From positions 1 through 41,101 of the forward strand of contig JAJYXI010000057.1 of NCBI GenBank assembly GCA_021791055.1: DNA of 41,101 nucleotides. Reading direction: 5' to 3'. Under the pieces are notes generated by a model. It saw only the letters and a list, made by a program, of their open reading frames with translations. It was not told the DNA's origin and did no database searches. This DNA comes from Nitrospirota bacterium (GTDB lineage: Bacteria > Nitrospirota > Thermodesulfovibrionia > Thermodesulfovibrionales > Dissulfurispiraceae). Numbering within the stretch: the stretch's first letter is position 1; every line of letters starts with the position of its first letter. Position numbers and translations under genes: made by a program. Shown one piece after another: positions 156 through 21,456 of the stretch.

Positions 156-255
156 CTTTCCTGCGGGCGTTTGTCCAATATTTATGTATAATCTATTGCT
201 ATTTTTAATAGCTAATATCCGAGCAAACGCGGGTTCCCGGTATCACGAGGGGCCT

Positions 256-279
256 GTGGGGGAGATGGGTCTCCCCCAC
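256..279 (+). promoter_or_regulatory. Perfect 10-bp hairpin just 5' of the cytochrome ribosome binding site
   Basis: GTGGGGGAGA (256-265) and TCTCCCCCAC (270-279) are exact inverted complements around a TGGG loop. The Shine-Dalgarno AAAAGGAGG follows at 285-293 and the start codon is at 298. There is no T-tract, so it is not an ordinary intrinsic terminator. In mRNA it would form a very stable stem next to the ribosome entry site, so a role in mRNA stability or translation control is possible. Confidence 0.55.
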
Positions 280-297
280 GCTCTAAAAGGAGGTCGC

Positions 298-1236
298 ATG
301 AAAAGGGTTTTCTTGGTGGCTCTCTTATGGATTCCCCTGCTCTGTTTTACCTATACAGCAAGTGCAGAGACCTTTACCTGTCTGGCCTGTCACAGCGCAA
401 TGAAGGGTAAGATTCGGACAGAAGAAGGCGCTTTAATCGATGTAAATGTTGACGGAGAAAAATACTCTGAATCCGTTCACGGAGGTTTTGATTGTATTAT
501 ATGCCATAAACAATTCGGTTCCAATCCCCACGAACCGGCAAGGATTGCAAATGTTCCACAGGGCATTGCTTCTCTGGCGAGCAAGCTGACCCATAAGGCA
601 AAGGTCGATCCGGTCGCCCTTGCTGCGTGCTCGGAATGTCACGGTGATATTTATAAATCGTGGCAGAACAGCGTCCACGGCAGCAATGTAATACAGAAGA
701 AGCAGTCTGACGGCGCTTCCTGTATAGACTGTCACGGCTCACCCCATTACATAACGCCTAAGAATACAGTTGCATCCCATGTCAATAAAAAGAATATAAT
801 TAAGACCTGCGGGGAATGCCATGAAAAGGAAGACCTCGCCGGGAAATACGGCCTTGGAACCCATATACTTGAAAGATACTATGAAAGCTTTCATGGTAAA
901 AAATATGTCATAGGACATCCCAATGCTCCAACATGTGTTGACTGCCACAGATCTCACGATGTAAAAAAGTGGGAAGACCCAATGTCCCCTGTTGCATGGG
1001 ATAACAGGACAGAGACATGCGGCAGGTGTCATAAAGGCGCTACCAAGAAGTTTGTCACCGCAATTACCCACAAACCATATGGAAAGGATAACCCTGTCCC
1101 GTATTATTTCGAAAAGGGATTGATAGTCCTTTTATTGTCGGTATTCGCATTTATTGTCGGACATGTCATCCTCGATGCGTATTCGGAAATCAGGGATAAG
1201 GTCTTAAGAAAAGGGAAGGAGGGGCACCATGAATAA
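298..1236 (+). CDS. Seven-haem membrane-anchored periplasmic cytochrome c
   Basis: The protein (312 aa) has an N-terminal signal peptide, seven CxxCH haem c motifs (CLACH, CIICH, CSECH, CIDCH, CGECH, CVDCH, CGRCH), and a C-terminal transmembrane helix followed by a short charged tail. It should therefore sit in the periplasm, anchored in the inner membrane. I chose the ATG at 298 over an upstream in-frame one at 184 because AGGAGG lies directly before it and it starts the signal peptide. It overlaps the cytochrome b gene by 8 nt, which indicates one operon. The pair resembles a split version of the Geobacter CbcL layout (multihaem c domain plus HydC/FdnI-like b domain). Inferred role: passing electrons between the quinone pool and periplasmic carriers. 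The specific partner is unknown. Confidence 0.85.
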   Translation: MKRVFLVALLWIPLLCFTYTASAETFTCLACHSAMKGKIRTEEGALIDVNVDGEKYSESVHGGFDCIICHKQFGSNPHEPARIANVPQGIASLASKLTHKAKVDPVALAACSECHGDIYKSWQNSVHGSNVIQKKQSDGASCIDCHGSPHYITPKNTVASHVNKKNIIKTCGECHEKEDLAGKYGLGTHILERYYESFHGKKYVIGHPNAPTCVDCHRSHDVKKWEDPMSPVAWDNRTETCGRCHKGATKKFVTAITHKPYGKDNPVPYYFEKGLIVLLLSVFAFIVGHVILDAYSEIRDKVLRKGKEGHHE

Positions 1237-1954
1237 AGAGATCCCAAAGGAATATCTCCGTTTTAATGTTACAGAGAGGATTCAGCATGTAATTATGTTG
1301 ACCACATTCCTGCTCCTGTCCTTCACAGGTTGGGCATTGAAATATCCGGAACAGACTGTCGAACACTCAAGCTGGCTGGTAAGGATATGGGGCGGTGCAA
1401 AGAATACCGGAATTGTCCATCGCATAGCAGGTATCACCATGCTGCTGGACTTTGTATGGCATGTGCTTTATCTCGGATACATGCTTTCAACAGGAAAGAT
1501 GAAGATCAGGAAAGACACGACCATTATACCCCTGCCGAAGGATGTGATGGACGCCGTTAAAAACATACTGTATTTCCTCGGCCTTGGCAAAGAGAAGCCG
1601 CAATTCGGCAGATTCAGCTATATACATAAATTCGATTACTGGGCGGTCTTCTGGGGCATGGGAATCATAGGACTGTCAGGTCTTTTCCTTGCATTCCCTG
1701 TGCAGGCTTCATATCTCTTCCCTTTATGGAGCGTGAACTGGATATGGGAGGTAATCTCCATCATGCACAGCGATGAGGCTCTTCTTGCCATAGTCTTCAT
1801 ACTCTTCTGGCACTTCTATAACGAACATCTGAAGTGGAACAAATTCCCCATGAGCATGACATGGATTACAGGAAAGATTTCCATCGAGGATATGAAGCAT
1901 GAGCATCCCATCGAGTATAAACTGGAATTCGGCGACAAAGGGGACAACAAATGA
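1229..1954 (+). CDS. Cytochrome b (HydC/FdnI-like) quinone-interacting subunit
   Basis: A 241-aa membrane protein with four hydrophobic helices (about residues 20-38, 65-87, 137-157 and 183-203). Histidines H20, H64, H78, H180, H195 and H200 lie in or near the helices and are candidates for two b-haem ligand pairs, as in formate dehydrogenase gamma and hydrogenase cytochrome b subunits. The gene is embedded between two multihaem c cytochromes with overlaps on both sides (8 nt upstream, 4 nt downstream), so the three products very likely form one quinol:cytochrome c electron-transfer complex. No dehydrogenase or hydrogenase catalytic subunit is in the window. Direction of electron flow cannot be read from sequence. 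Confidence 0.8.
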   Translation: MNKEIPKEYLRFNVTERIQHVIMLTTFLLLSFTGWALKYPEQTVEHSSWLVRIWGGAKNTGIVHRIAGITMLLDFVWHVLYLGYMLSTGKMKIRKDTTIIPLPKDVMDAVKNILYFLGLGKEKPQFGRFSYIHKFDYWAVFWGMGIIGLSGLFLAFPVQASYLFPLWSVNWIWEVISIMHSDEALLAIVFILFWHFYNEHLKWNKFPMSMTWITGKISIEDMKHEHPIEYKLEFGDKGDNK

Positions 1955-2715
1955 GATGGTTGATAGCGATTATAACCATAAGCGCATTGATATTCGGCTG
2001 TGCTCCAAAGAAGGCGGAAAAAGGCGTAGCAGAAAAGGCCGCTGAGAAAATAATATCAAGGGACGAGGCAGTAAGCAGTTTGCCGTGCTTTAAATGCCAC
2101 TCATACCAGAAATTCTCCGCGCCACCCCGGAGGGGGATATTCCCCCACCAGAAGCATATGAGCGCAGGCTATCACTGCAATCAGTGCCACGACCCCAGAG
2201 GGCATCGGCACATGGTGGTTAACAGGAATATCTGCAGCAACTGTCACAGCATGAAGATAATTACCTTTGACAGGACGGTTTTACCGTCAAAGTTTAACCA
2301 CGAGGCTCACGCAAAGCTGTTCAACTGCAAGGAGTGCCATCCGGGGATATTCCTGATGAGCGCAGGCGCTGCCCATGTCACCATGAAGGACATTAATAAC
2401 GGTGCATATTGCGGCGCATGTCATGACGGCAAAAAGGCATTTGCTTCTTCTGAGTGTGCAAAGTGCCATAAAATGAAGGGCTTTGAAAAGGAGCTCGTAT
2501 ATAAGGTTGACGGTATAGGCAATGTGGTCTTCAGCCACAAGTTCCACACAACAGCGTTCTCCTGCGATTCATGCCATCCGAAATTATTCGACATGAAGAA
2601 GACACAGGGAAAAATGAAGATGGATGACATGAACAACGGAAAACTCTGCGGTGCCTGCCACAACGGAAACATTGCTTCACCTGTATCGGACTGCGGAAAA
2701 TGCCATAAGGGATAG
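1951..2715 (+). CDS. Nine-haem lipoprotein cytochrome c with repeated c7-type modules
   Basis: The 254-aa protein starts with a lipoprotein signal peptide (lipobox ending at C17) and has nine CxxCH motifs: CFKCH, CNQCH, CSNCH, CKECH, CGACH, CAKCH, CDSCH, CGACH and CGKCH. The last six fall into two tandem three-haem modules (F-x-H-x-x-H ... C-x-x-CH-P ... M-x-D-x-N-N-G ... CGACH ... C-x-KCH), the layout of cytochrome c7/c3-type repeats. The same module occurs alone in the small cytochrome at 38742-39059. The start overlaps the cytochrome b gene (ATGA). Inferred: a lipid-anchored electron carrier that takes electrons from the 7-haem/b-type partners. Confidence 0.85.
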   Translation: MRWLIAIITISALIFGCAPKKAEKGVAEKAAEKIISRDEAVSSLPCFKCHSYQKFSAPPRRGIFPHQKHMSAGYHCNQCHDPRGHRHMVVNRNICSNCHSMKIITFDRTVLPSKFNHEAHAKLFNCKECHPGIFLMSAGAAHVTMKDINNGAYCGACHDGKKAFASSECAKCHKMKGFEKELVYKVDGIGNVVFSHKFHTTAFSCDSCHPKLFDMKKTQGKMKMDDMNNGKLCGACHNGNIASPVSDCGKCHKG

Positions 2716-2773
2716 AAAGGATAGATAGCTGCATGTTGCGGCTGTATTGAAGCAAGATTGTCTGGGTTCTCAG

Positions 2774-2799
2774 TGGGGGCAGATAACGCCCTGCCCCCA
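2774..2799. terminator. Hairpin between convergent operons, possible bidirectional terminator
   Basis: TGGGGGCAG (2774-2782) and CTGCCCCCA (2791-2799) form a 9-bp perfect stem with an 8-nt loop, between the stop of the lipoprotein cytochrome and the stop of the convergent small membrane protein gene. Neither side has a clear T-tract, so intrinsic termination would be weak. The position is typical of a terminator. Confidence 0.45.
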
Positions 2800-2807
2800 T
2801 CATTAGT

Positions 2808-3095
2808 TTACCGTTCCTTTGTAAGCACCTGAAACAGCCTTGCAATCATCACGCTGAAGATTCCGCCTATGAAGGAGCCGAATGCCCCTATGATGGCAAC
2901 GACTATTATTACGCCTATGATCACTGTAAAGTTGTTGGGTGAAAGGTGTGCATTGAACATGCGATTAAGGTCATTGGCCACTGCCTCGCTCCATCCGCCG
3001 CCGAGGCTCTTTCCAAGTAGTAGATCCATGCTGAGGGCAACTGCAACACCCAAGATTCCGCCCAATATAACGCCGATATAAAAGGCCCTTTTCAT
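2808..3095 (-). CDS. Small two-helix membrane protein of unknown function
   Basis: A 95-aa protein with two glycine-rich hydrophobic segments (about residues 4-27 and 57-88) joined by a short soluble loop, and a basic end (LTKER). I recognise no family. Its start codon overlaps the stop of the NtrC-type regulator (TAATG arrangement), so it is the last gene of the kinase-regulator operon. It might be a small partner of the sensor kinase or an unrelated passenger. Confidence 0.6.
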   Translation of the reverse strand: MKRAFYIGVILGGILGVAVALSMDLLLGKSLGGGWSEAVANDLNRMFNAHLSPNNFTVIIGVIIVVAIIGAFGSFIGGIFSVMIARLFQVLTKER

Positions 3096-4441
3096 TACTC
3101 TTCTATCCCGTACTTTTTAAACTTTCTGTATAAAGTCGCAAGGTCGATACCCAATGCCTTTGCTGTTTCTTCCTTGTTTTTGTTGTGGGCTTCGTAAAGC
3201 TTTATGAGCAGATTTTTTTCATAATCGCCCAGATATGCCTTTAAAGTAGAGGATTGTATGTCGTGTTCGGTTTTTTTCAATTTGTCAGGAAGATTGCCTT
3301 GAGTAATGTAGTCTCCTTCTGTAAGGACGACTGCCCTCTCTATTACATTGCCCAGCTCTCTTACATTGCCGGGCCATGAGTATTCGATTAATGAAGACAG
3401 TGTCTCCGTATCAATGCCCTTTATATTTTTTTTATGCTCTTCCGAAAATTTATCTATGAAATGCCTTGCGAGCATCTCTATGTCGTCCTTCCGCTCCCTT
3501 AAAGGCGGTATCTTTATCTCTATTACATTTAATCTCCAGTAAAGGTCTTCCCTGAACTTCCCTTCCTTTATCCTGTTTTCTATGTCCACATTGGTTGCGG
3601 AGATTATCCTTACATCAACTATTTTGGGTTTTGTTTCGCCGAGGGGATAAACCTCACCTGTCTCTAATACCTTTAGAAGTTTTGCCTGAAGATTAGGAGG
3701 CATATCCCCTATTTCGTCCAGAAAGAGTGTCCCCTCATGGGCAAGAGGGATGAGTCCTAATTTATCCGACACAGCACCCGTAAATGCTCCCTTTTTATAA
3801 CCGAAAAGCTCTGATTCAAGTAGCCCTTCAGGAATCGCAGAGCAGTTTATGGAAATAAACGGTTTATCCCGTCTCGGGCTGTTGCAATGGATTAGTTCTG
3901 CAATAAGGCCCTTTCCTGTCCCGCTCTCCCCCAATATCAGTATATTGCTTTTTGTGGGTATCACCTTTTCGAGGGTCTCGATTATTTTTATCATGGACTC
4001 TGAGTTTGCAACAAAGTCCCTGCAGGCCATGCGCTGGCTTATCTGCTGTTTAAGGGCAATGTTTTCATTTATTATCTTTTTCTGTTCGATGACTTTTTTG
4101 ATTGTGAGCTTTATCTCTTCGTTGAGGAAGGGCTTTACAATATAATCAGATGCGCCTTTTTTCATTGCCTCAACTGCAGACTCTATGGAGGCAAATGCCG
4201 TCATCATTATCACCGGCATATCAGGGTTTATCTCCTTTGACTTTTCGAGAACGGTCATTCCGTCGACCCTACCCATCTTCAGGTCTGTAATTATAACATC
4301 AAAGCTCTCAGTCTTGAGGTTTTCTATTGCATCCTCGCCGCTGTTCACAGAGGTTACGGCATAGCCCTCCCTCTTTAGCAGGAATTCCAATGCCTTACAT
4401 ATGTCAGGCTCGTCATCGACTATTAATATCTTTGGCTTCAT
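3095..4441 (-). CDS. NtrC-family sigma-54-dependent response regulator
   Basis: The 448-aa protein has three domains in order: receiver (residues 1-120; acidic pocket D9/D10/E11, phosphoacceptor D53, K103), AAA+ ATPase (about 145-385; Walker A GESGTGKG at 171-178, GAFTGA sigma-54 contact loop at 218-223, Walker B LFLDEIGD at 239-246), and a C-terminal Fis-type helix-turn-helix (about 415-445). All key residues for sigma-54 activation are present. It lies 6 nt after the sensor kinase stop and is its likely partner. The window contains a good sigma-54 promoter at 38690-38705 in front of a cytochrome gene, a possible target. Target genes are otherwise unknown. Confidence 0.93.
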   Translation of the reverse strand: MKPKILIVDDEPDICKALEFLLKREGYAVTSVNSGEDAIENLKTESFDVIITDLKMGRVDGMTVLEKSKEINPDMPVIMMTAFASIESAVEAMKKGASDYIVKPFLNEEIKLTIKKVIEQKKIINENIALKQQISQRMACRDFVANSESMIKIIETLEKVIPTKSNILILGESGTGKGLIAELIHCNSPRRDKPFISINCSAIPEGLLESELFGYKKGAFTGAVSDKLGLIPLAHEGTLFLDEIGDMPPNLQAKLLKVLETGEVYPLGETKPKIVDVRIISATNVDIENRIKEGKFREDLYWRLNVIEIKIPPLRERKDDIEMLARHFIDKFSEEHKKNIKGIDTETLSSLIEYSWPGNVRELGNVIERAVVLTEGDYITQGNLPDKLKKTEHDIQSSTLKAYLGDYEKNLLIKLYEAHNKNKEETAKALGIDLATLYRKFKKYGIEE

Positions 4442-4447
4442 TCTCTT

Positions 4448-6490
4448 TTAGCTGTTATTTATTGGTATAGTTATTGTGAATAAGCTTCCCTTGCCGGCTT
4501 CGCTCTCAACGGTCAGCGTACCGCTCATCTTTTTGATAATATTATAACTTACTGCAAGTCCGAGACCCGTGCCCTTTTCCTTGGTTGTATAGAAGGGATC
4601 GAATATCTTGAGTAGATCCTCCCGCGGAATGCCTGTGCCTGTATCTTCGAACTGTACGATTATATCGCTTCCCCTCAACATGCTTCTGACAGTAAGCTTC
4701 CCTCCATCAGGCATGGCGTCTATGGCGTTCAGCGTGAGGTTTACAAAGACCTGCGAAAGCTGATTCCCATCAATGGTGACTACAGGCAGAGAAGGGGAAA
4801 GCTCTTTGATGATTGATATGGTCTTTGCCTTTTTGTCGTACTGTATAAGATTGATGGATGTCTCTATAATTTCGTTTATATAACATTCTTTTGGCTCTCC
4901 GGCAGGCATCTTTGAGAAGCCGGAAAGCTGTTTCAATATTTCTGAAATCCTGTTTATGTGAAAATAAATTGTTTCGAGGCTCTCTTTTTTAAAATCATCG
5001 TCTTCCATTTCCCTGAGTATCTGGACAAAGGAGAAAATGGATGTGAGAGGATTTCCTATCTCATGGGCAATGCCGGCTGCAAGCCTTCCGATGGAGGCGA
5101 GTTTTTCTGAATGGATTATCTGTTCTTCCATCTTTTTTATTTCTGTTACATCCTGTATAAGCCTTATGTATCCATGGATTTCTCCGTTTACTCCTTTCAC
5201 AGGAGCAGTGGTAATCTGGAAGTGCTTATCCCTCTGCCCGAAGAGGTTAGATAGAATTACCGTGTCAATACTATCTTTGGCTCTGGTATACTCAGCTGAA
5301 ACATGGCAGTCAGGACAGATATCCTCGCAAGATTTGCCGGTAACATCCATGCCGGCCATATCTTTTATCATCTGATTTGTCCATTGAATCCTGCCGGATC
5401 TGTCGATTAATACAATTCCGCCTCCTATGGCGCTGACAATGGTATTGAGCTTTTCCTTTTCACTTACAAGCTCTGCTGTTCTTTCATTGACCCTTTCTTC
5501 GAGTTCGACAGCATATTTTTCAAGCTCTTCCTTTCTCTTTGCCACCTCTTCTGCCTTTATCCTCTTTTTGTTGAATATAATCAAAAGGGTTGAAACAACG
5601 CTCGTGGTAATGAAAATGGATATTATGAGATAGGAGTAGAGTCCCATGCTATGTCTCGTAGCCGAGGTTACTTCGGAGTAGGGGGCGGACACAGCGATTA
5701 TCCATGAAAGGCTATCTATGCCAACAGTGGAAAATGCAATAATCTTGTCCTCCCCTGTAGGCGCAATGTGCCTGCCGTAATTGCTTGTCTTTCCCTCGAT
5801 TATGCGCTTTTCGAGATCAAAGTTCATATGACATTTAAAACAGGTGGAATCTGCCTTGTAAATGTTTCCGCCAACCATGCCGGGCTGGGTAGGATGGTAG
5901 AGGAGGGTTCCGTTTTTATCCATCATCCATGCATATCCTCTGCTGCCCGATTTTATATTGCTTACAAAGTATTTTGCTATATCGTTTATTTTGATGGATA
6001 GGAAGATTATCCCCTTCATGCTGTTCTGGTTGTATACCGGGGATATGATGTAAATGGCATGGGGGGTCTCAATGATGAGGGTGTTGCCGGGCACTATATT
6101 TTTCGTCTGTTCCAGCATATTAGCAGCAATGGGTTTTAATGTATCGCTGTCCCCCTCGAAAAAGACTATATTGCCTTTTACATCCAGAATGCCGAGGGTT
6201 GTTTCTATTATTCCCTTCTTTCTCAGGGCATCATTTGTCAGCCAGTCGAGGTCCTTTTTGTTCGTTATGCCCCGCTTGGACAGCATATTGGAGATATGGC
6301 GGACATCCTGCTTTATGAAATACAGATAGGCGCTTATGTTGTCGGCTATGGATTTGGAGAGCAGAGACTGCTGCTTGTTAAACTGCTCCGCCATTTCCAT
6401 CTGGAGGGATTGCTGGAAAAAGACATTCAGTGTAATAAGGACAGAGATTACAGTTATGAGGGTTCCGACTATCAGTAAGTAGCTCTTCAT
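4448..6490 (-). CDS. Membrane sensor histidine kinase with periplasmic haem c motif
   Basis: About 680 aa: TM helix (about residues 4-25), large periplasmic Cache-like domain, second TM (about 284-306), coiled coil, PAS domain (about 350-450), HisKA with phosphoacceptor H476 in AHEIGNP, and a HATPase with the N box, DTGTGIP, and the GTGLGLAV motif. The periplasmic domain carries a CFKCH haem c motif (C217, C220, H221), so it probably senses redox state or a gas through covalent haem, as known for Geobacter sensors with a haem in a PAS-like periplasmic fold. The PAS domain has a second, cytoplasmic CPDCH (C392-H396), which cannot get haem c by the periplasmic pathway. I prefer the ATG at 6490; an in-frame TTG at 6508 lies inside a T6 tract. 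It is paired with the NtrC-type regulator downstream. Confidence 0.88.
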   Translation of the reverse strand: MKSYLLIVGTLITVISVLITLNVFFQQSLQMEMAEQFNKQQSLLSKSIADNISAYLYFIKQDVRHISNMLSKRGITNKKDLDWLTNDALRKKGIIETTLGILDVKGNIVFFEGDSDTLKPIAANMLEQTKNIVPGNTLIIETPHAIYIISPVYNQNSMKGIIFLSIKINDIAKYFVSNIKSGSRGYAWMMDKNGTLLYHPTQPGMVGGNIYKADSTCFKCHMNFDLEKRIIEGKTSNYGRHIAPTGEDKIIAFSTVGIDSLSWIIAVSAPYSEVTSATRHSMGLYSYLIISIFITTSVVSTLLIIFNKKRIKAEEVAKRKEELEKYAVELEERVNERTAELVSEKEKLNTIVSAIGGGIVLIDRSGRIQWTNQMIKDMAGMDVTGKSCEDICPDCHVSAEYTRAKDSIDTVILSNLFGQRDKHFQITTAPVKGVNGEIHGYIRLIQDVTEIKKMEEQIIHSEKLASIGRLAAGIAHEIGNPLTSIFSFVQILREMEDDDFKKESLETIYFHINRISEILKQLSGFSKMPAGEPKECYINEIIETSINLIQYDKKAKTISIIKELSPSLPVVTIDGNQLSQVFVNLTLNAIDAMPDGGKLTVRSMLRGSDIIVQFEDTGTGIPREDLLKIFDPFYTTKEKGTGLGLAVSYNIIKKMSGTLTVESEAGKGSLFTITIPINNS

Positions 6491-6517
6491 TTCTTTATAT
6501 GATAGCAAAAAACAGCT

Positions 6518-8626: not shown

Positions 8627-9184
8627 TCAAATGAACTCTTTTTCGCATCGGGCTATAATCTGCGTCATCTCCTCCTCGGATATGTCAGGCAGTACAATCC
8701 TGCCGTTTTCATCGCGGTCGAGTTGTGAAATGCCGGGGAACTGCCTTTCCAGCAATTTAATGTTTAGTGCCTGCTGTCTGATTATGTCCAGAAGCCTCCT
8801 GTTTTCCTCTTCCAGATTATACTTGTCGATTGCAGCCTTTACAGCAAACCGTATATCCATATCATTCCACGGCTTTGTGAAGAATCTGTAAATCTCGCCC
8901 TCGTTGATTGCCTTCATTGCAGAATCTATGCTTGCATGCCCTGTCAGCATAATCCTGATTATATTGGGGAATTGTTCACGAACCATTGAAAGGAATTCCG
9001 AGCCGGAGATTTCCGGCATCCTTTCATCGGATATAACCACCTTTATAGAGTGCTTTTTCAATATCTCCATGGCCTCCGGTGCACTGTTGGCTGAATATAT
9101 CCGATAAGGCTCATCAATGAATACCCTCGTAAGCGCAGAGATTACATTCGGCTCGTCATCAACTATCAGGATGTTGTCTTCCAT
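8627..9184 (-). CDS. Single-receiver response regulator with coiled-coil tail
   Basis: The 185-aa protein has a receiver domain (acidic pocket D9/D10/E11, phosphoacceptor D53 in VISDERMP, and a KPWND motif), a short coiled coil (about 122-145), and a C-terminal segment with FPGI and RDENGRIVLPDIS. The KPWND signature is shared with the five other KPWND receivers in this operon and is common in RpfG-type regulators. No output domain is recognised, so it may act by protein contact. It overlaps the upstream ATPase fusion by 19 nt and is the last gene of the 15-kb signalling operon. Confidence 0.85.
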   Translation of the reverse strand: MEDNILIVDDEPNVISALTRVFIDEPYRIYSANSAPEAMEILKKHSIKVVISDERMPEISGSEFLSMVREQFPNIIRIMLTGHASIDSAMKAINEGEIYRFFTKPWNDMDIRFAVKAAIDKYNLEEENRRLLDIIRQQALNIKLLERQFPGISQLDRDENGRIVLPDISEEEMTQIIARCEKEFI

Positions 9185-11616
9185 TCTAAACCTCCTTTAT
9201 CCGTCTGCTTTTTCGTCCCGCAGAACGGGCATATGAGCCATTCCTCCTCAAGTGGCAGTTTACAATTATGGCATATGTTATGCCTGAACATGCCGCAGTA
9301 GGGGCAGAATAAAAATTTTATATCGATCATGTTGCCGCAGTTCTCGCACTGGCGCTCATACTTTGTGGGAGGGCCTATTACCCTCAATAGCTCCTCCAGT
9401 GTCGTAATGCCGAGCCTTACCTTCTCTATCCCATCCTCTATTAATGTCCTCATCCCTCCCGCCTTTGCGAGGTTCATAATTTCCGACTCTTTATAATCGC
9501 TGCTTATGAGCTGCCTGAACTCATCGTTCATTACAAACAACTCGAAAATACCTGTCCTTCCAAGATAGCCTGTATTATTGCATTTGCTGCATCCCTTGCC
9601 AATGGTCACTTCCTTGAAAGTGTTCTCCGGTATCTTGAGGAGCTTCATTCCCTCTGCATCAGGACTGGTTGTTGTCTTACAGTAGTGGCAGACTTTTCTT
9701 ACAAGTCTTTGCGCTATTATCCCTTCAATAGCCGATGCGATGAGATATGGTTTGACGCCGATATCGATAAGACGGGTGATGGATGCCACTGTGTTGTTTG
9801 TGTGGAGGCTTGTTAAAACCATGTGGCCTGTGAGCGCTGCCTTGAATGCCACATCCGCTGTTTCATGATCACGGATTTCACCCACCAGTATTACATCAGG
9901 GTCCTGCCTTAGCGTCGCCCTCAATACGGATGCAAAGGAAAGTCCTATGCGCTCCCTTACATAAACCTGACTGGCATCTTCGAGGAAGTATTCGACAGGG
10001 TCTTCTATGGTCTCATAGTTTTTGGTGGACTGGAGCATTTCATAAAGAATGGAATAAAGCATGGTGGTCTTGCCGCTTCCTGTGGGGCCGGTCGATATCA
10101 GTATGCCCTGAGGTTTTTTTATGACTACCTCCAATCTCTGTAGGTCGTCCTGCAGCATTCCAAGCTCTGCAATCTTTTTGATGGAGGCGCCTTTATCCAG
10201 TATCCTCATAACAATTTTTTCGCCATTTATAGTCGGCATGCTTGAGACCCTTACATCCACTATTCTTGTGCCTGTTTTCATGGTAATCCTTCCGTCCTGC
10301 GGCTTGCGGCGCTCTGAAATGTCCATCTTGGCAAGGATCTTCATCCTCGATATAACAGCAGGGTGGAGATTTGAAGGTATTTTTATCTTTGTGTGGAGCA
10401 TTCCGTCGATTCTGTATCTGACAATTGTATATTTGGTCTTTGGCTCGATGTGTATATCGCTTGCCTGATAGCGGAGCGCCTCCATGATGATTGCATTTAC
10501 AATCCTTACAATTGGTGGAATGCCTGATGTGCTGATGAGCTCCTGAACATTTATGTCCGATTCATCTTCTTCTATGACAACATCTATTTCCTCTATGGGC
10601 TCAAACTCCAGTGTTTCTCCGATTTCCTGAATTGTTTCTGTCCCTTCTCTTTCTCCGTATATTTTTTTAATCTGATTAATAATATCAGAGGAAGTTGCAA
10701 CCACAGGAATTACTTTAAATCCCGTAAGCATGGAGATATTGTCTGTTTTCATAATGTCCGAAGGGTCTGCCATGGCAATTGTTAAATTCCTGCCGTCGAG
10801 TTTTATGGGAATCAGCCTGTTTTTTTCACACAGCTCCATGGGTAGAAACTTTGCCACATTCGGGTTTATACGAACCTCTTTAAGGTCTATATAATCTAAA
10901 TTCTGGTGCTTCTGGAGCGCCTGTACCATCTTCGATTCTGTCGTAAATCCAAGTCGGACTATTACATCGCTTATGAATTCGTCCTTATCTTTTTCTTTCA
11001 ATGCCCTGCTGAGCTGTTCATTGGTGATGATGCCAGATTTCACGAGTATGCTGCCTAAAATTCCCCTGTATTCGTCAAAGAGATTGGAGTAGGTTTTGAT
11101 TTTTACCTGCTGCTCCTTTGCCAGCTCCTTGAGCTTCTTATTTTCATGGATCAGGACATACTGCTGCAGGGCAAGGCTTACGGTCAGACGCAGGTCTTCG
11201 TCATTCCACGGTTTTGTTATGAATTTATAGACAGCGCCTTCATTCACTGCACCCATAATCGCCTGAATATCCGCATGGCCTGTGAGCATGATCCGTATGG
11301 TCTCGGGCCATCTGTTTTTAATCTCTCTGAGCAGTTCGGAACCTAACATCCCGGGCATTCTGTGGTCGGAAATCACCAGGTGAACGACGGTGTTTTCTAT
11401 AGTCCTGAGGGCATCTTCCCCTGAAGCGGCGGTCAGGATTTCGTAGTTTTCATCGAGGAATATGCGTCTAAGCGCATTAAGCACATTTTCTTCATCGTCG
11501 ACAAAGAGCAGCGTAAACCTTCTCTGTTCAGAATCCGGCATTTCTCCGGAGCGGATTATTTCATCTTCGGATCCGTCTTTTTTTACTGCCTTGAAGAGTT
11601 CAGCGTATTTACTCAT
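9166..11616 (-). CDS. Receiver - PilB/GspE-type ATPase - double zinc ribbon fusion
   Basis: The 816-aa protein has, in order: receiver domain (about 33-155; D84, KPWND), coiled linker, MshEN/T2SSE N-domain-like region (about 182-325), secretion ATPase (about 355-750; Walker A GPTGSGKTT at 510-518, Walker B VILVGEIRD near 575-583, HTNN His box, and the PilB/GspE zinc site C643/C646/C676/C679), and a C-terminal double zinc ribbon (C757, C760, C771, C774, C782, C785, C796, C799). The ATPase would power type IV pilus assembly or type II secretion. Fusion to a receiver implies direct phospho-control, and the N-domain may bind c-di-GMP, although its first RLG-type motif is imperfect. No pilin or secretin gene is nearby. 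It overlaps the upstream kinase by 8 nt. Confidence 0.9.
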   Translation of the reverse strand: MSKYAELFKAVKKDGSEDEIIRSGEMPDSEQRRFTLLFVDDEENVLNALRRIFLDENYEILTAASGEDALRTIENTVVHLVISDHRMPGMLGSELLREIKNRWPETIRIMLTGHADIQAIMGAVNEGAVYKFITKPWNDEDLRLTVSLALQQYVLIHENKKLKELAKEQQVKIKTYSNLFDEYRGILGSILVKSGIITNEQLSRALKEKDKDEFISDVIVRLGFTTESKMVQALQKHQNLDYIDLKEVRINPNVAKFLPMELCEKNRLIPIKLDGRNLTIAMADPSDIMKTDNISMLTGFKVIPVVATSSDIINQIKKIYGEREGTETIQEIGETLEFEPIEEIDVVIEEDESDINVQELISTSGIPPIVRIVNAIIMEALRYQASDIHIEPKTKYTIVRYRIDGMLHTKIKIPSNLHPAVISRMKILAKMDISERRKPQDGRITMKTGTRIVDVRVSSMPTINGEKIVMRILDKGASIKKIAELGMLQDDLQRLEVVIKKPQGILISTGPTGSGKTTMLYSILYEMLQSTKNYETIEDPVEYFLEDASQVYVRERIGLSFASVLRATLRQDPDVILVGEIRDHETADVAFKAALTGHMVLTSLHTNNTVASITRLIDIGVKPYLIASAIEGIIAQRLVRKVCHYCKTTTSPDAEGMKLLKIPENTFKEVTIGKGCSKCNNTGYLGRTGIFELFVMNDEFRQLISSDYKESEIMNLAKAGGMRTLIEDGIEKVRLGITTLEELLRVIGPPTKYERQCENCGNMIDIKFLFCPYCGMFRHNICHNCKLPLEEEWLICPFCGTKKQTDKGGLEWKTTS

Positions 11617-12982
11617 AAAAACCGTTTCCCGTTTCCCGTTTCCCGTTCAATGGCAATGTTATTACAAAGGTTGCCCCCTTCTCCGGCTCGCTCTTGACTT
11701 CGATATTCCCTCCATACCGGGATATAATATCATAGGTTACTGTCAGACCCATGCCTATGCCTTTGCCCACATCCTTTGTGGTAAAAAAAGGCTCAAATAT
11801 GCGGCTCTGGATCTCAGAGGGAATGCCCTTACCATTGTCAGCAATGGAAATGACCGCATTATCACCGTGCTGTTCTGTTTTAATCGTTACTATAATGTTA
11901 TCGTCCCTTGAATGGAGGGCGTTTAACAGGATGTTCAGAAACGCCTGACAAATAAGCCCGGGATTGCCGTAGAAACCCGCAACCTGACCATACTGTTTTG
12001 CGATCTCTGCCGACCTGTTTTTTATCTCATGTGAAAGCACACCGATGGTATTGTCCATTTCTTCATTGATACTCATCTCACTGTCGGTAGCTTCATCTAT
12101 GTGTGAGAAGTCCTTCAGATTGACCACAATGTTTTTTATACGCTCGGCTCCGTCAACGCTCTGTTTAATGAGGCCATGGATATCATTTATTATGAAGTCA
12201 ATCTTTAGTTTTTTCCGCAGTTCTTCTGATTCCCGACTTCTGTGCCCTGACTCCTGACTGTAAAATCTAAGCATTTCATCAATATTTTTAATATATTTCC
12301 AGAATGTATTGAGATTGCTGTAAATAAAGCCCATGGGATTGTTTATCTCATGGGCAACGCCTGCTGCAAGCTTTCCTATGGACGCCATCTTCTCCTGCTG
12401 GAGGAGCCTTGTGTATGCCCTTTTCAATTCTTCTGTTCTTTCAATGACCCTTTGCTCAAGGGTCTCTGCCAGCTCCTTGTATTTCTTTTCCGAGGCTGTC
12501 AGGTTTTTGTTGATTTCAAGAAGCTCTTCGTAAGACCTTTTTACAACAGTTGTGTGCAGTTCTGTGGTGAATACCCGTTTTACGATATTCCTTATTATGA
12601 TGTTGAGACCCGTGAAAGCGGTATCCATGAGGTTCGAGAGAAACTGTTCATTTAGCGCTTCTGGTGCGGATACGAAAAAGAAACCGATGGGTTCAGCCTC
12701 ATGATAGATGGCAGATAATCGCCAGTTAACTCTGCTTAGGGTCTCCAGGTTTTTGTGATCTCTTTTTGTTATGGCCTCCATTACAGTTGACGGCAATTCT
12801 CTGTTATCCGGGATATTGCCTTCCGACCATAGGAATTTGCCCTTGTCGTCTGTAACAGCCGCAAGGTCTGCGCCTGCCTCCACCATTGCCTTCAACAGGG
12901 GGAGCACATCCGGGGCGCTCAGTATGTCTTTAAGCCCCATATCTGCGCCGAGGGAAAAATCTATCCTGTCCATTTGTTCCAT
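11609..12982 (-). CDS. Soluble histidine kinase with N-terminal sensory domain
   Basis: The 457-aa protein has no transmembrane helix. Residues 1-140 form a domain I cannot assign firmly (Roadblock- or GAF-like by feel: an AAVTDDKGKFLWSEG stretch and a predicted alpha/beta pattern). A coiled coil follows (about 145-198), then HisKA with H211 in AHEINNP, then HATPase (DNGKGIP, GKGIGMGLTV). The gene follows the MglA-like GTPase by 1 nt and overlaps the PilB fusion, so it may sense GTPase state and phosphorylate the receiver-ATPase. Two short heptamer arrays lie inside it, one in the kinase core and one encoding its last residues. Confidence 0.85.
   Translation of the reverse strand: MEQMDRIDFSLGADMGLKDILSAPDVLPLLKAMVEAGADLAAVTDDKGKFLWSEGNIPDNRELPSTVMEAITKRDHKNLETLSRVNWRLSAIYHEAEPIGFFFVSAPEALNEQFLSNLMDTAFTGLNIIIRNIVKRVFTTELHTTVVKRSYEELLEINKNLTASEKKYKELAETLEQRVIERTEELKRAYTRLLQQEKMASIGKLAAGVAHEINNPMGFIYSNLNTFWKYIKNIDEMLRFYSQESGHRSRESEELRKKLKIDFIINDIHGLIKQSVDGAERIKNIVVNLKDFSHIDEATDSEMSINEEMDNTIGVLSHEIKNRSAEIAKQYGQVAGFYGNPGLICQAFLNILLNALHSRDDNIIVTIKTEQHGDNAVISIADNGKGIPSEIQSRIFEPFFTTKDVGKGIGMGLTVTYDIISRYGGNIEVKSEPEKGATFVITLPLNGKRETGNGFYE
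11624..11647 (-). repeat. Heptamer array (GTTTCCC x3) at the end of the kinase gene
   Basis: Three exact GTTTCCC units (11624-11644) plus GTT. On the minus strand they encode the last residues of the kinase (GKRETGNG). Single orientation. Confidence 0.6.
12223..12257 (-). repeat. In-frame heptamer array inside the kinase core
   Basis: Five degenerate heptamers in plus orientation: CTTCTGA, TTCCCGA, CTTCTGT, GCCCTGA, CTCCTGA. They are translated as SQESGHRSRESEE, in the helix between HisKA and the DFIINDI motif, the same place where the kinase at 17547 carries its own array. Confidence 0.55.
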
Positions 12983-12983
12983 A

Positions 12984-13652
12984 CTACTGCTCTGCCAAAT
13001 CGGCGCTTAGCCTTGCAAGGTTATCCACGAACATCTCCTTTGTGAGCATATGTTTTTCTTTCAGGCTGTGGCGGATGTCGATGTAATCGTAAGTGAGCGC
13101 TACAAGCCTCCTGAATGTTTCGAGAACGCCCTGTCCGTATAATGCAGATGCCATAAAAACCGGTATGCCTGTGGATTCCCATGCCCTGTGAATCTCATCT
13201 TCTGAAATAATATCCTTCAAGTCTCTTTTGTTAAATTGTATAATGAGGGGTATCTTCTCTATATCGATTCCCACAAATGCAAGGTTTTTTTCGAGGTTTT
13301 CGAAGCTCTCAACATTATTCGCAGATTCCGAAATCTGGGAGTCAGCAATAAAGGCGATGCCGTCGGCCCTTGTCAATACCGCCTTTCTGGTTGCATCGTG
13401 CCGCACCTGTCCCGGAACAGTATAGACCTTTACCTTTATCTTCAGACCGCCCGGGGCTGTAAAGAAAAAGGGGAGCAGGTCAAAGAATATGGTGCGGTCA
13501 TCTTTTGTATCGAGTGTCATCAAATCACCCCTGCCTTCTATGGCAAGGATGTCGTGGAGCCGCAAAAGATTGGTGGTCTTGCCTGACATGGCAGGGCCGT
13601 AATATACGAGCTTTAAAACCATCCTTTGCTCTATTTCGTCGTATTCAATCAT
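12984..13652 (-). CDS. MglA-like Ras-family GTPase
   Basis: The 222-aa protein has P-loop GPAMSGKTTN (19-28), G3 box TVPGQ, which is the MglA form of the motif, G4 box NKRD and G5 SAL. The neighbouring FIADSQ and the absence of a membrane tail also match MglA, the bacterial GTPase that sets cell polarity and directs type IV pili and gliding machinery. No MglB (Roadblock) GAP gene is recognised next to it, though the kinase downstream has an unassigned N-terminal domain. It overlaps the HD-type regulator by 4 nt. Inferred: part of a switch that positions or activates the PilB-like ATPase. Confidence 0.88.
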   Translation of the reverse strand: MIEYDEIEQRMVLKLVYYGPAMSGKTTNLLRLHDILAIEGRGDLMTLDTKDDRTIFFDLLPFFFTAPGGLKIKVKVYTVPGQVRHDATRKAVLTRADGIAFIADSQISESANNVESFENLEKNLAFVGIDIEKIPLIIQFNKRDLKDIISEDEIHRAWESTGIPVFMASALYGQGVLETFRRLVALTYDYIDIRHSLKEKHMLTKEMFVDNLARLSADLAEQ

Positions 13653-14998
13653 TTCCTTTTTACCCAGATAAATACTCCTGTTTTTGCCGGATCAATATGA
13701 TAGCCCCTTTTTAATGTCGCTATATTCTTGTCGTTCAATACACTGCCTGCACTTAAAAGTAAAAGCCCTGTTCCGCTCCTTATATCCCTGGACACGATCA
13801 TTCCCGGCATGACATCGTTGACTGTCAATTCTATCTCTATCCTCGTTTTCAGGTCTATTTCTATTTCTTTAAATATCGAGGCGAATCTTTCCTTTACTAC
13901 ATCGGTAAGGAATTTGAACATCTCAGGGTCGAACTGCGTTCCAAGAGATGCCTTTATCTTATCCAGAACACCCTGCACGGCATGAATTTGAAATGTACCA
14001 TGAATCAGTCTGTCAAATTGATCAGCTATTGCGATTATTCTCGAACCAACCGGTATCTGTTTTTCCTTGATGCCGTCAGGGAACCCTTTTCCGTTAAACC
14101 ACTCGTGATGGTGTCTTATAAGAACGCCCGCACTACGGAGGTCCTCAATAAAGTCAATAGCAGCCTGTCCCCTTACAGTGTGCTTTCTGTATTCTACAAT
14201 CTCATCAGGAGACATCTCGGCAGAGGTTTTTAACAAAACAACATCGGAGATGCCGATTTTACCAATATCATGCAGTTGGGCTGCTATCGCAATTGTTTCT
14301 GCTTCGGAACTATTCATGCCCATTTTTATTGCCATCTCTTTTGATATTGCTGCAACACTATTTGAGTGGCTGCTAACGGATTTATCCTTTAATTCGATGA
14401 GATTTGAAAACGAAGAGATAAAGTCTTTAATGTTTCTGTTTAACCTCTCATTGAGTCTTTCAAGCTCCTTATTCTGTCTTGTTAAGTCTACTGTCTGCTG
14501 CTGTACGTAAAATTCAAGCTCTGAACTCCACTTCTTAAGTTCTTCATTCTGCTTTCTTGTGAGTTCTGTAAGGCGCTTATTTTCCTTTTTCAGGTTGTAT
14601 ATTTCTACCGAATTCAGTACTGTCAGCATCAAGTCGTTGTCGTCCCATGGCTTTGTTATATACTTTGATGCGCCTCCCTTATTTACTGCATCCATTGCCG
14701 CATTGATATCGGCATAGCCTGTAAGTACAATTCTTACGGATTCGGGCTGCATCTTTCTTGCCTTTTCGAGGAATTCCGAGCCGCTCATTTCAGGCATCTT
14801 CTGGTCGGAGACTATGACGGCAACCTCGCTGTTTTTCAACATTCCGAGGCCTTCCTTGCCTGACATGGCTGTGAGGATGTTTATGCCGTCCACATCCATG
14901 AACAGCCGCCTCATGGAGCGGAGGACATTTTCTTCATCGTCCACAAAGAGGACATTGAATATTTCTTTATTAGGCAATGTTATCCCTGATAAATGCAA
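13649..14998 (-). CDS. Response regulator with HD-GYP-type phosphodiesterase domain
   Basis: The 449-aa protein has a receiver (D65, KPWDD), a long coiled coil (about 135-195), and an HD-GYP domain: H243-D244 in LHDIGKIG, HHHE at 296-299, and GFP at 305-307 in place of GYP. A C-terminal domain of about 95 aa follows (VNDVMPGMIVSRDI...), as seen in some RpfG relatives. The expected activity is hydrolysis of c-di-GMP; the GFP variant may weaken it. The start is a TTG at 14998 with AAGGTGG 6 nt upstream, inside the end of the preceding gene (29-nt overlap); a second TTG at 14977 is possible. Confidence 0.87.
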   Translation of the reverse strand: MHLSGITLPNKEIFNVLFVDDEENVLRSMRRLFMDVDGINILTAMSGKEGLGMLKNSEVAVIVSDQKMPEMSGSEFLEKARKMQPESVRIVLTGYADINAAMDAVNKGGASKYITKPWDDNDLMLTVLNSVEIYNLKKENKRLTELTRKQNEELKKWSSELEFYVQQQTVDLTRQNKELERLNERLNRNIKDFISSFSNLIELKDKSVSSHSNSVAAISKEMAIKMGMNSSEAETIAIAAQLHDIGKIGISDVVLLKTSAEMSPDEIVEYRKHTVRGQAAIDFIEDLRSAGVLIRHHHEWFNGKGFPDGIKEKQIPVGSRIIAIADQFDRLIHGTFQIHAVQGVLDKIKASLGTQFDPEMFKFLTDVVKERFASIFKEIEIDLKTRIEIELTVNDVMPGMIVSRDIRSGTGLLLLSAGSVLNDKNIATLKRGYHIDPAKTGVFIWVKRK

Positions 14999-15761
14999 GG
15001 GTTACCACCTTTTGCTCCTTTCCAATATCCAATGAGACTCCGAGAAGTTTTCCTGAGATACCATTTATCTCCACTTTCTCCACAGCGCCATATCTGGTCT
15101 TCATTGTGTCCACAAACTTCATTACCTTTTCCGGCATGGTGTGCTGGTCTCCTGTAACACCCTTCCATGCGGGATTGCATCGAAATACCATATTTTTAAA
15201 GTCAAAAAAGGAGATCCCTATGGGCAATGAATCAATGATATGTTGGTTGATATTCATCTCCTTGCTTTTAGACTCAAGATGGGCTGACTGTTGTTCCATG
15301 AATTCCTTCAGTTTGCTGTTTAACATTACGAGCTGCCTGTTTTTTTCCTCAAGTTCGGATGTCAGCTCAAGGTTTTTCTTATGGAGGAAGTATCTGTCGA
15401 GGGCATTGGATATGGTAATTCTCAATTCATCATCATTCCACGGTTTTGGAATGAATTTGTAGATATGTCCCTCGTTTACGGCTGTAATCAATGCATTAAG
15501 GTCTGCATAACCGGAAAGGATTATTCTTATGATATCCTCCCGCTGTTTCCTTACGACCTTCAGGAGTTCGATGCCGTTCATATCAGGCATGCGGTAGTCA
15601 GAGACAATGAGCTGCACATCGTTTTCTTCCAGTATCTTCAGGGCTTCCTTCCCTGACAGTGCCGTGAGTATTGTGTAACCGGCATCCATGAAGACCCTTT
15701 TTACTGCGGTGAGGACATTCTCCTCATCATCCACAAAGAGTATCTTGACCTTTTCATCCAT
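14970..15761 (-). CDS. Response regulator with receiver, coiled coil and PAS-like output
   Basis: The 263-aa protein has a receiver (D55 in VSDYRMP, KPWND), a coiled coil (about 125-165), and a PAS-like domain (about 168-260: IIDSLPIGISFFDFKNMVFRC). There is no kinase or DNA-binding domain. It is a paralogue of the gene at 16736-17545, so receiver-PAS proteins and HD-GYP proteins alternate in the operon. GGAGGGGG precedes the ATG. Inferred: an adaptor that changes binding partners when phosphorylated or when its PAS senses a ligand. Confidence 0.83.
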   Translation of the reverse strand: MDEKVKILFVDDEENVLTAVKRVFMDAGYTILTALSGKEALKILEENDVQLIVSDYRMPDMNGIELLKVVRKQREDIIRIILSGYADLNALITAVNEGHIYKFIPKPWNDDELRITISNALDRYFLHKKNLELTSELEEKNRQLVMLNSKLKEFMEQQSAHLESKSKEMNINQHIIDSLPIGISFFDFKNMVFRCNPAWKGVTGDQHTMPEKVMKFVDTMKTRYGAVEKVEINGISGKLLGVSLDIGKEQKVVTLAFIRDNIA

Positions 15762-15779
15762 TTCCCCCTCCTGTATATA

Positions 15780-16739
15780 CTATGAAGTTTTAAAACTTTT
15801 TTCTGTTAAAAGTTTTATAAAGATATCCACAATCTCAGGGTCAAAAAACTGTCCTTTGAACGAAATTAAAAACTCTATTGCCTTTTCATGTGAAATTTTA
15901 TTCCTGTAAGGCCGGTCGGATGTCAATGCGTCATAGGTATCGGCTACGGTGACTATTCTGGCCTCGATTGGAATATCGGCGCTCTTTAATCCGAGGGGAT
16001 AGCCCTTTCCATCATACCTTTCGTGGTGATAAAGGACGATGTTGATTACTGCTTCCGGAAGCTGGGCCAGCCTTGCCACATTGGCTCCCCATCTGGAATG
16101 GTTTCTTACTATTTCCATCTGTTCCGGAGATAATGGACCATTGTGGTTAAGTATGGATTCAGGGACGCCAATCTTGCCGCAGTCATGGAGCCATCCACCG
16201 TATTTTATGTATTTCTGATCTTCCTTTGATAGACCGAGGGCCTCTGCCATCTTAACTGCATAATTTGCCACCCTGTCGCAGTGTCCTTTTGTATAAGGGT
16301 CTTTAAGTTCTATGGTCTGGGCCAAAGAGAGCAGGGTTGGCTCATCTGCCCTTTTGAAAGATAAGACGACTTTGTAATGATTGACGGCATTGAGGACTGT
16401 ACCCTTCAGGTCATTATCGTTCCACGGCTTTGTTATAAACTTATAAACCGCTCCTTTGTTAATGGCGTCTATGGCAGCATGGAGGTCTGCATAGGCGGTC
16501 ATTATGATCCTTACGGTTTCAGGGGAGATGTCCTTTGCCTTTTGCAGGAATTCTATGCCGGTCATTTCGGGCATTCGGTTGTCAGAGACAATAACGGAGA
16601 TGTTGTTGTTCTTTAATATATCCATGGCCTCAAAGGCATTCATGGCAGTCATTATTCTTACATCGCTGTCCATAAAGAGCCTTTTCATGGAGTTCAGGAC
16701 ATTGATTTCATCGTCAACAAATAAAACCGTATCCTTCAT
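15780..16739 (-). CDS. RpfG-type response regulator with HD-GYP phosphodiesterase
   Basis: The 319-aa protein has a receiver (D53, KPWND) joined to an HD-GYP domain with the full canonical motifs: H185-D186 in LHDCGKIG, HHE at 238-240 and the GYP triplet at 246-248 (DGKGYP). It should degrade c-di-GMP to GMP or pGpG when activated by phosphorylation. It overlaps the upstream receiver-PAS gene by 4 nt, which points to joint translation. Confidence 0.92.
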   Translation of the reverse strand: MKDTVLFVDDEINVLNSMKRLFMDSDVRIMTAMNAFEAMDILKNNNISVIVSDNRMPEMTGIEFLQKAKDISPETVRIIMTAYADLHAAIDAINKGAVYKFITKPWNDNDLKGTVLNAVNHYKVVLSFKRADEPTLLSLAQTIELKDPYTKGHCDRVANYAVKMAEALGLSKEDQKYIKYGGWLHDCGKIGVPESILNHNGPLSPEQMEIVRNHSRWGANVARLAQLPEAVINIVLYHHERYDGKGYPLGLKSADIPIEARIVTVADTYDALTSDRPYRNKISHEKAIEFLISFKGQFFDPEIVDIFIKLLTEKSFKTS

Positions 16740-17545
16740 ACGATATCATCCTCTCTGCTAAAAATAAGGATTATGCCCTTCTGTGTATCGCTATAATCCA
16801 TTATAGCACCGGAAAGCCTGCCGTAAATTCCATTTATTTCTACTTTTTTTATTGTTTTGTCTTTGTTCTTGACTCCCTCAATAAAATCTTTTATGTCCTC
16901 AGGCAGTCCGCCTGAGACAGCCCCAATATTTTGGCCCAATAACTGCCAGTTGGTATTTGTAATATCAATCCATGTTGAATTGCATAAAACTATTGTATTG
17001 CTGAAATCTATTCCTATAATCCCCACAGGCATTGCATCGAGGATGTTCTGCTGAATGGAGAGTGCCTTGCTTCTGAAAGCGAGATGGGATTCCAGCTCCT
17101 TATTCAGTCTTGTGAGTTCATTATTTTTTTTCTGGAGTTCTTCTGTGAGTTCCAGATTTTTCTTAAAGAGGTAATACCTTTCAATGGCATTGGAAATAGC
17201 GACCTTTAATTCATCATCATTCCACGGCTTTGGAATGAATTTATAAATCTGTCCCTCATTTATGGCTGATACGACTGCAGCAGCGTCAGCATATCCGGAA
17301 AGTACAATTCTGACAGTATCCGGCCAGCATTTGCACACCTCTTTAAGAAATTCAACACCATTCATGCCGGGCATACGGTAGTCTGATATGATTATCTGAA
17401 CCTCCTCTCTTTTGAGAATTTTCAGCCCGTCTTCTCCTGATGCTGCTGTGAGGATTGTATACTCCTCGTCAAGAAAGAGCCTCTTTAGGGCATTCAGGAC
17501 ATTCTGTTCATCGTCTACACATAATATTTTGATTTCTTCATTCAT
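16736..17545 (-). CDS. Response regulator with receiver, coiled coil and PAS-like output
   Basis: A 269-aa paralogue of the protein at 14970-15761: receiver (D55 in ISDYRMP, KPWND), coiled coil, PAS-like domain (ILDAMPVGIIGIDFSNTIVLCN) and a C-terminal strand pair. I chose the ATG at 17545, which has GGAGAGG four bases upstream and sits one base after the stop of the kinase gene; a longer frame from 17560 begins inside the kinase gene. Output mechanism unknown. Confidence 0.83.
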   Translation of the reverse strand: MNEEIKILCVDDEQNVLNALKRLFLDEEYTILTAASGEDGLKILKREEVQIIISDYRMPGMNGVEFLKEVCKCWPDTVRIVLSGYADAAAVVSAINEGQIYKFIPKPWNDDELKVAISNAIERYYLFKKNLELTEELQKKNNELTRLNKELESHLAFRSKALSIQQNILDAMPVGIIGIDFSNTIVLCNSTWIDITNTNWQLLGQNIGAVSGGLPEDIKDFIEGVKNKDKTIKKVEINGIYGRLSGAIMDYSDTQKGIILIFSREDDIV

Positions 17546-17546
17546 T

Positions 17547-18932: not shown

Positions 18933-18970
18933 ATGGTAATTATATAACTATTTTTTTATTGCTGATTATT

Positions 18971-20638: not shown

Positions 20639-20649
20639 AAATCCTCCTG

Positions 20650-20922
20650 TTACTCTAATGCATCGGATACAGCCTGTGCCAGTTTCTCCATATTAAAGGG
20701 CTTTTGTATAATTGCCTCAATCCCTGCCTCAAGTAAATCCTCCTTCTTTGCACAAAAGTCATAGCCTGTAATCCCTAAAATCTTGACGGATGGTTTTCTT
20801 TGTTTGATTTCCCTGCTCAGTTCCATACCTCCCATCTCAGGCATTATCATATCAGTAATCACCAATCCTATCTCATCACATTGACACTCAAATATATTCA
20901 GAGCCTCTTTGCCGAGAGACAC
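20650..20922 (-). pseudogene. C-terminal receiver fragment of a broken hybrid kinase
   Basis: Ninety codons carry the second half of a receiver domain (GLVITDMIMPEMGG with the phosphoacceptor Asp, then ITGYD and KPF). The first strand and acidic pocket are missing. The frame differs from that of the kinase fragment just upstream, with which it overlaps at 20888-20922. It was almost certainly the C-terminal receiver of the same hybrid kinase. Confidence 0.75.
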
Positions 20923-21454: not shown

Positions 21455-21456
21455 AC

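Follow-up and report, generated by a model that had tools for sequence, protein, structure and literature searches.

For bacteria that respire with extracellular or low-potential acceptors, it is to our knowledge an open question how periplasmic redox state is sensed and how a choice is made among the electron exits of the inner membrane. The question is raised here by a locus in which a sensor histidine kinase with a haem c motif and its response regulator stand tail to tail with a cytochrome operon. The locus lies in a stretch of 41,101 nucleotides from a Nitrospirota bacterium (contig JAJYXI010000057.1), hereafter the window. We consider it reasonably probable that this transmembrane kinase senses redox through haem c in a double Cache (dCache) domain and, together with an NtrC-type activator, controls the adjacent oxidoreductase, so that electron exit is matched to the redox state of the periplasm. 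The features on which this reading depends are as follows.

184 to 1236, plus strand: heptahaem c-type cytochrome with a C-terminal transmembrane segment (seven CXXCH, Cytochrome_C7); likely start ATG at 298, after AAAGGAGG
1229 to 1954, plus strand: membrane cytochrome b, Ni_hydr_CYTB / formate dehydrogenase gamma-like (Pfam, E 5.3e-9), without CXXCH
1951 to 2715, plus strand: nonahaem c7-type cytochrome (nine CXXCH, Cytochrome_C7, nanowire_3heme domain)
2773 to 2800, plus strand: terminator-like hairpin between the convergent units (sequence)
2808 to 3095, minus strand: membrane protein of 95 aa, two hydrophobic segments, no family match (ORF, Pfam, hydropathy)
3095 to 4441, minus strand: NtrC/AtoC-type response regulator with receiver, Sigma54_activat with GAFTGA, and Fis-type HTH (Pfam; best NCBIfam match AtoC, below cut-off)
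4448 to 6490, minus strand: sensor histidine kinase of 680 aa, ordered TM1, periplasmic dCache_1, TM2, PAS, HisKA, HATPase_c (ORF, Pfam over cut-off, hydropathy)
4460 to 5089, minus strand: HisKA and HATPase_c kinase core (Pfam)
5141 to 5431, minus strand: cytoplasmic PAS domain with CPDCH at residues 392-396 (Pfam PAS_4)
5573 to 5641, minus strand: second transmembrane helix, residues 284-306 (Kyte-Doolittle windows)
5687 to 6397, minus strand: periplasmic double Cache domain, PF02743 (Pfam E 1.8e-21, AlphaFold2, PDB fold matches)
5828 to 5842, minus strand: putative haem c attachment motif CFKCH, residues 217-221, with His221 as the presumed proximal ligand (C217, C220 and H221 invariant in 80/80 rows)
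5876 to 5878, minus strand: Met205, candidate distal haem ligand (invariant in 80/80 rows; not Met in 20/20 haem-free nearest relatives)

The initial annotation had described a CFKCH motif at C217-H221 in a periplasmic Cache-like domain, a pairing of the kinase with an NtrC activator and a convergence of the pair on a three-gene cytochrome operon, and all three elements were recovered. The position of the motif was borne out by the ORF translation, the Pfam dCache_1 assignment and the topology, as the domain is bracketed by hydrophobic segments at residues 1-25 and about 284-306. The kinase gene begins with ATG, and an alternative TTG at 6508 would add six residues (686 aa, with C217 then numbered C223). 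Six bases separate its stop codon from the start of the adjacent regulator, in which receiver, sigma-54 activation domain with GAFTGA and Fis-type HTH are all present, and the gene for the 95-aa membrane protein overlaps the 3' end of the regulator gene by one base. The pair on the minus strand and the cytochrome operon on the plus strand run tail to tail, with the hairpin at 2773-2800 between them. The window starts where the contig starts, which leaves 297 bases of sequence ahead of the probable start codon of the first cytochrome gene.

Some further features of the surroundings were recorded. The 95-aa protein has Gly-rich helices and adjoins the kinase and regulator in many relatives, and a small membrane protein resembling it is encoded ahead of the heptahaem gene in loci L046, L048, L060, L078, L086 and L088. 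Positions 8627-24185 of the window form a dense signalling block that holds a receiver-T2SSE(PilB-like)-zinc ribbon protein, a small Arf/MglA-like GTPase, HD-domain response regulators and several hybrid kinases.

Conservation of the motif was followed in two samples that overlap, many genomes being common to both. The sensor domain was searched in 295 genomes of the phylum and gave a match at 1e-10 in 87, and all 60 full-length matching places that were taken with their surrounding regions kept CXXCH at the same position (60/60, L087 included). A second scan, using one genome per species and two peptide patterns without CXXCH, returned 98 relatives, 80 of which were kept; by title these were almost all Nitrospirota, the two exceptions being Campylobacterota (L174) and Hippea (L183), and CXXCH was again retained throughout (80/80, L178 included). 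The weaker tier of the sensor-domain search comprised 24 places, and CXXCH was absent from all 20 that were read, which indicates that the search itself was not selecting for the motif. Conservation of CFKCH thus exceeds chance. Lack of conservation in orthologues had been named in advance as a result that would speak against haem sensing, and the motif was kept in both samples. A second haem site at the CPDCH in the PAS domain was weighed and rejected, since that motif is cytoplasmic and occurs in few relatives.

The next point concerns the Cache family to which the sensor belongs. The dCache_1 profile (PF02743) matched it over its full length at 77.2 bits against a cut-off of 45. Structure prediction around C217-H221, which the initial annotation had proposed as a check, gave a confident two-module double Cache (AlphaFold2, modelled without haem; pLDDT 86.1, pTM 0.85) with CXXCH between strands 172-175 and 215-219 of the model. 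Its PDB fold matches were dCache receptors, including Tlp1 (Z 19.9, rmsd 3.4 over 236 residues) and PscC (Z 19.2, rmsd 3.0 over 230 residues); searching the PDB with the heptahaem subunit and with the b-type subunit gave no useful match. The sensor therefore shares fold and sequence family with dCache_1 receptors such as PctA, Tlp1, PscC and the mmHK1S histidine kinases, and among the dCache_1 structures listed none is titled as a haem protein.

The obvious precedent is sCache_heme (PF11845), a family that includes GSU0582 and GSU0935; PMC12889525, which defines it, calls it the first Cache domain known to bear a cofactor covalently. Its members likewise combine a periplasmic Cache-type sensor, one CXXCH near the C-terminal strands and fusion to signalling modules; they are single Cache domains, whereas the window kinase has a double Cache of the dCache_1 family. 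Membership in PF11845 was tried and rejected. The profile gave no match to the kinase up to E 10, and a search of the whole genome with it found six other proteins, this kinase not among them. By hhalign the sensor aligned to 15 haem-free dCache_1 domains of related genomes at 99.5% probability, and likewise with the haem segment cut out, whereas against 28 PF11845 domains it reached 22% over the CXXCH stretch only, falling to 0.4% with that segment cut out. The CXXCH near the C-terminal strands was thus the feature that the sensor shared with sCache_heme, the single Cache being absent; no PF11845 structure appeared among the 50 PDB matches listed, which says little. The sensor is a haem-motif dCache_1 domain whose sequence family is separate from sCache_heme. 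A literature search with subscription journals mostly outside its coverage found no description of a haem c dCache kinase, and the accessible portions of PMC8694187, PMC4822843 and PMC12325454 contained nothing on haem in dCache domains.

Within the sensor the conserved positions are concentrated around the motif. C217, C220, H221, H199, P200, M205, F224, W188, W263 and P270 were invariant in 80/80 rows, and columns conserved at 95% or above numbered 25/103 in the membrane-proximal module and 0/68 in the distal module. Known dCache_1 receptors bind small ligands, mostly through the distal module, whereas the conserved site of the window kinase lies in the membrane-proximal one. These observations bear on the proposal that the protein senses ligands as dCache receptors ordinarily do, a small organic molecule being bound in the distal module and the haem having a structural role or being vestigial. 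We regard this as improbable: the fold does match amino-acid and organic-ligand dCache receptors, yet the distal module is the least conserved part of the domain and the haem loop the most conserved.

Reading the motif as a haem c site is supported by its invariance together with H199, M205 and F224, by the periplasmic topology and by the presence of cytochrome c assembly genes, four such proteins being encoded in the genome. A metal site or a disulphide at C-x-x-C-H in place of haem c is in our estimation very improbable. The three look the same when judged from sequence alone, but this CXXCH is on the outer side of the inner membrane and the genome encodes cytochrome c assembly proteins, the invariant Met is specific to rows with the haem motif, and the same motif is used by known c-haem Cache domains (PMC12889525).

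All 20 of the nearest haem-free relatives that were read keep the HP-motif His but have Phe or Leu where Met205 stands (12 aligned). Met205 thus tracks the haem motif, being present in 80/80 sequences with it and 0/20 without, which makes it the best candidate for a distal ligand, and it is likely to be the distal haem ligand of the kinase. In the crystal structure of GSU0935 one haem has His/Met and the other His/water ligation, and the Met is thought to leave on oxidation (PMC8396549).

The surroundings of the motif also carry information on its origin. The span from H199 to W263 was 63-64 residues in the haem family and 74-80 in the nearest haem-free class, compared with 48-60 in other dCaches, apart from one of 76 that belongs by sequence to the haem-free sister class. 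The longer loop is therefore already present in the nearest haem-free relatives, which suggests a change within an existing loop and not a fresh insert. For sCache_heme, an origin by insertion of a cytochrome fragment has been put forward (PMC12889525, a 2026 preprint). In a tree of 45 rows the 15 haem rows fell on one side of a branch with an SH-aLRT of 100%. A second dCache_1 group, in signalling proteins with CHxCH after the helix, was found in L233, L237 and L240 and also in the window's own genome (G000:C53:67924-68160, L109); its CHxCH does not align in position with CFKCH, and the group formed its own branch. The simplest reading is that haem was acquired twice, separately, within dCache_1, though losses may have contributed; among Cache domains as a whole, capture of haem c appears to have happened repeatedly. 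Locus L128 (7067-8890) likewise contains a kinase whose dCache_1 has CHxCH after the helix.

From these features a course of signalling can be proposed. Haem would be attached in the periplasm to C217 and C220 of the membrane-proximal Cache module, with His221 as the axial ligand on one side and probably Met205 on the other. A redox change at the haem would loosen or bind the Met side, in the manner described for Geobacter GSU0935, and the movement would be relayed through TM2 to the PAS-HisKA-HATPase core. The kinase would then phosphorylate the adjacent NtrC-type activator, which would switch on a sigma-54 promoter. The genes so controlled would most likely be those of the neighbouring inner-membrane quinol:multihaem-cytochrome oxidoreductase, with the result that the electron exit route would be matched to the redox state of the periplasm.

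Alternatively, the haem c could bind nitric oxide or another diatomic gas, and the kinase could switch genes for nitrosative stress or for an altered respiratory chain. Precedents are found in two papers: the one signalling-type sCache_heme protein studied has high affinity for NO and gives no stable complex with O2, NO-sensor behaviour in vitro is reported for a kinase-fused sCache_heme (both PMC12889525), and GSU0582 and GSU0935 bind NO and CO besides responding to redox (PMC8396549). These precedents, however, belong to another Cache family, and the invariant Met205 suggests that the distal site is filled. Additionally, the neighbours are quinol:cytochrome complexes, with no NO-detoxification gene recognised among those neighbours that were annotated, which are a part of all. 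Gas sensing consequently appears unlikely to us, and sensing of redox for the choice of an electron exit is the best reading.

The downstream half of the redox pathway was compared with known systems. The kinase core and regulator have AtoS-AtoC and NtrB-NtrC as their best family matches, with a differing sensor domain, and neither NCBIfam equivalog was reached (AtoS 287.5 against a cut-off of 646; AtoC 467.6 against 714). The regulator nevertheless has the receiver, the AAA+ domain with GAFTGA and the Fis-type HTH of an NtrC-type enhancer-binding protein, and the genome encodes one RpoN. A further parallel, by gene content, is the CbcBA complex, which consists of a multihaem c and a b-type cytochrome. 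The window operon has the same gene make-up in its seven-haem c ORF and Ni_hydr_CYTB ORF, to which a nine-haem c7 gene is added. What we take to be BccR (GSU0598) is a sigma-54 regulator that stands beside cbcBA and is presumably required for CbcBA.

CbcBA of Geobacter sulfurreducens is an inner-membrane cytochrome quinol oxidoreductase (PMC12307469, PMC10553843) and is described along with CbcL in these papers and in PMC9129911. Its neighbour GSU0599 is listed as a two-component protein that carries two haem c motifs (PMC8396549) and is counted among the haem c signal proteins of that species (PMC8396549, PMC3831638); PMC3831638 mentions it next to GSU0582/GSU0935-like sensors and notes a further haem motif, a likeness drawn here from its description. 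DcrA of Desulfovibrio vulgaris, a periplasmic haem c sensor of redox or oxygen (PMC8396549), is likened on the same descriptive basis, being a chemotaxis receptor where the window protein is a kinase.

To see how constant the arrangement is, gene neighbourhoods were surveyed in 79 of the loci, the 80th (L178) having been left out by the ORF caller. An orthologous regulator (at least 50% identity) stood directly downstream of the kinase in 54/79; the remaining loci had another regulator upstream (10), none seen (10) or a contig edge (5). A multihaem gene, defined by three or more CXXCH, was then sought within 6 kb. It was found in 15/27 loci that had the orthologous regulator and were complete on both flanks, compared with 3/20 for 14-kb regions taken arbitrarily from these genomes (Fisher p 0.006), and in 16/35 of all loci with complete flanks (p 0.04). 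Where another regulator lay upstream and the downstream flank was complete, the count was 0/5. Linkage of the kinase-regulator pair to cytochrome operons, recurring across the phylum, is thereby supported.

Neighbours could be classed in 58 rows, the window included, a further 22 not being classable. CbcBA-like genes were present in 18, a [4Fe-4S]-NrfD plus c7 cytochrome set (NrfCD-like) in nine, another multihaem gene in 10, a class that includes loci with CbcBA-like genes partly beyond 6 kb, and none in 21; these totals lean upward, because short loci were counted when they held a cytochrome and set aside when they did not, and the complete-flank counts are to be preferred. CbcBA-like and NrfCD-like complexes replaced one another within small clades (L122 compared with L121/L124, L116 with L118, and L180 with L147/L153). 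A type of complex that changes between close relatives indicates that a function, and not one gene block, has been kept.

These swaps bear on the remaining explanation, namely that kinase and regulator control something else and adjoin the cytochromes as members of a shared conserved gene block. In its favour, a flank with rho and thioesterase is kept in many loci, the pair follows large ORFs resembling rpoB and rpoC by size in others, and 15/38 loci that have the orthologous regulator, and whose downstream flank is complete, lack a multihaem gene within 6 kb. Set against this, the rho flank varies while the cytochromes stay, and both types of complex alternate beside the same kinase. We therefore give this explanation a low probability and retain control of the neighbouring oxidoreductase as the preferred reading.

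Several other arrangements were seen in the survey. At L124 the kinase and the regulator are separated by another kinase, which carries CXXCH and CX4CH; the two putative haem kinases might share the one regulator. Histidine kinases of this kind, with CXXCH, CX4CH and a weak sCache_4-like sensor, adjoin or sit inside the kinase-regulator cluster at L143:10989-12788, L124:5218-7029 and L122:12781-14583 and are possibly GSU0599-like. Decahaem proteins with a NapC-like N-terminus are located beside the kinase at L130:7773-8663, L153:12308-13189 and L169:4945-5787. The clade of L131, L133-L135, L137, L138, L141, L142 and L144 has a different, less similar NtrC-family regulator upstream of the kinase, with a PAS-like start in L135 and L142; in these two loci divergent genes resemble universal stress proteins, and no multihaem gene is nearby.

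The target promoter was sought directly. A sigma-54 pattern search of the window gave 13 matches against 19.7 expected by chance, none of them before the operon, where the upstream region is limited by the contig. In the upstream regions of 17 relatives a GG-N10-GC scan gave a mean best score of 5.6 of 11 against 4.1 in shuffles, and no convincing sigma-54 site was found before the first cytochrome gene in the window or in most relatives. Three near relatives were examined more closely; a GTGG-N10-GC match occurs in L040 and L041 (with a spacing of 11 in L042) after a terminator and before a 103-aa ORF upstream of the cytochromes, and is suggestive only. A TATAAT-like stretch, ATTTATGTATAATCTATTGCTATTT, is strongly conserved just 5' of the heptahaem gene in the window (177-300), L042, L111 and L112, and fits a sigma-70 promoter before that gene. 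The window also has a GC-rich hairpin ahead of the heptahaem start codon. As a hypothesis, feedback from the redox state of the periplasm to cytochrome expression, which the initial annotation had suggested, may operate through the sigma-54 activator at a promoter of the neighbouring operon.

In summary, this locus brings together a sensor, a putative haem site for which two ligands are candidates, and beside them a putative target operon, and so offers a directly testable system. We hold tentatively, at close to even confidence, that the CFKCH dCache, the CHxCH dCache and sCache_heme represent separate captures of haem, the first of which would serve in Nitrospirota as a dedicated redox meter for choosing the quinol:cytochrome complex by which electrons exit in extracellular electron transfer. 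The haem-motif dCache_1 family speaks against PF11845 having been the sole family in which Cache domains gained haem c.
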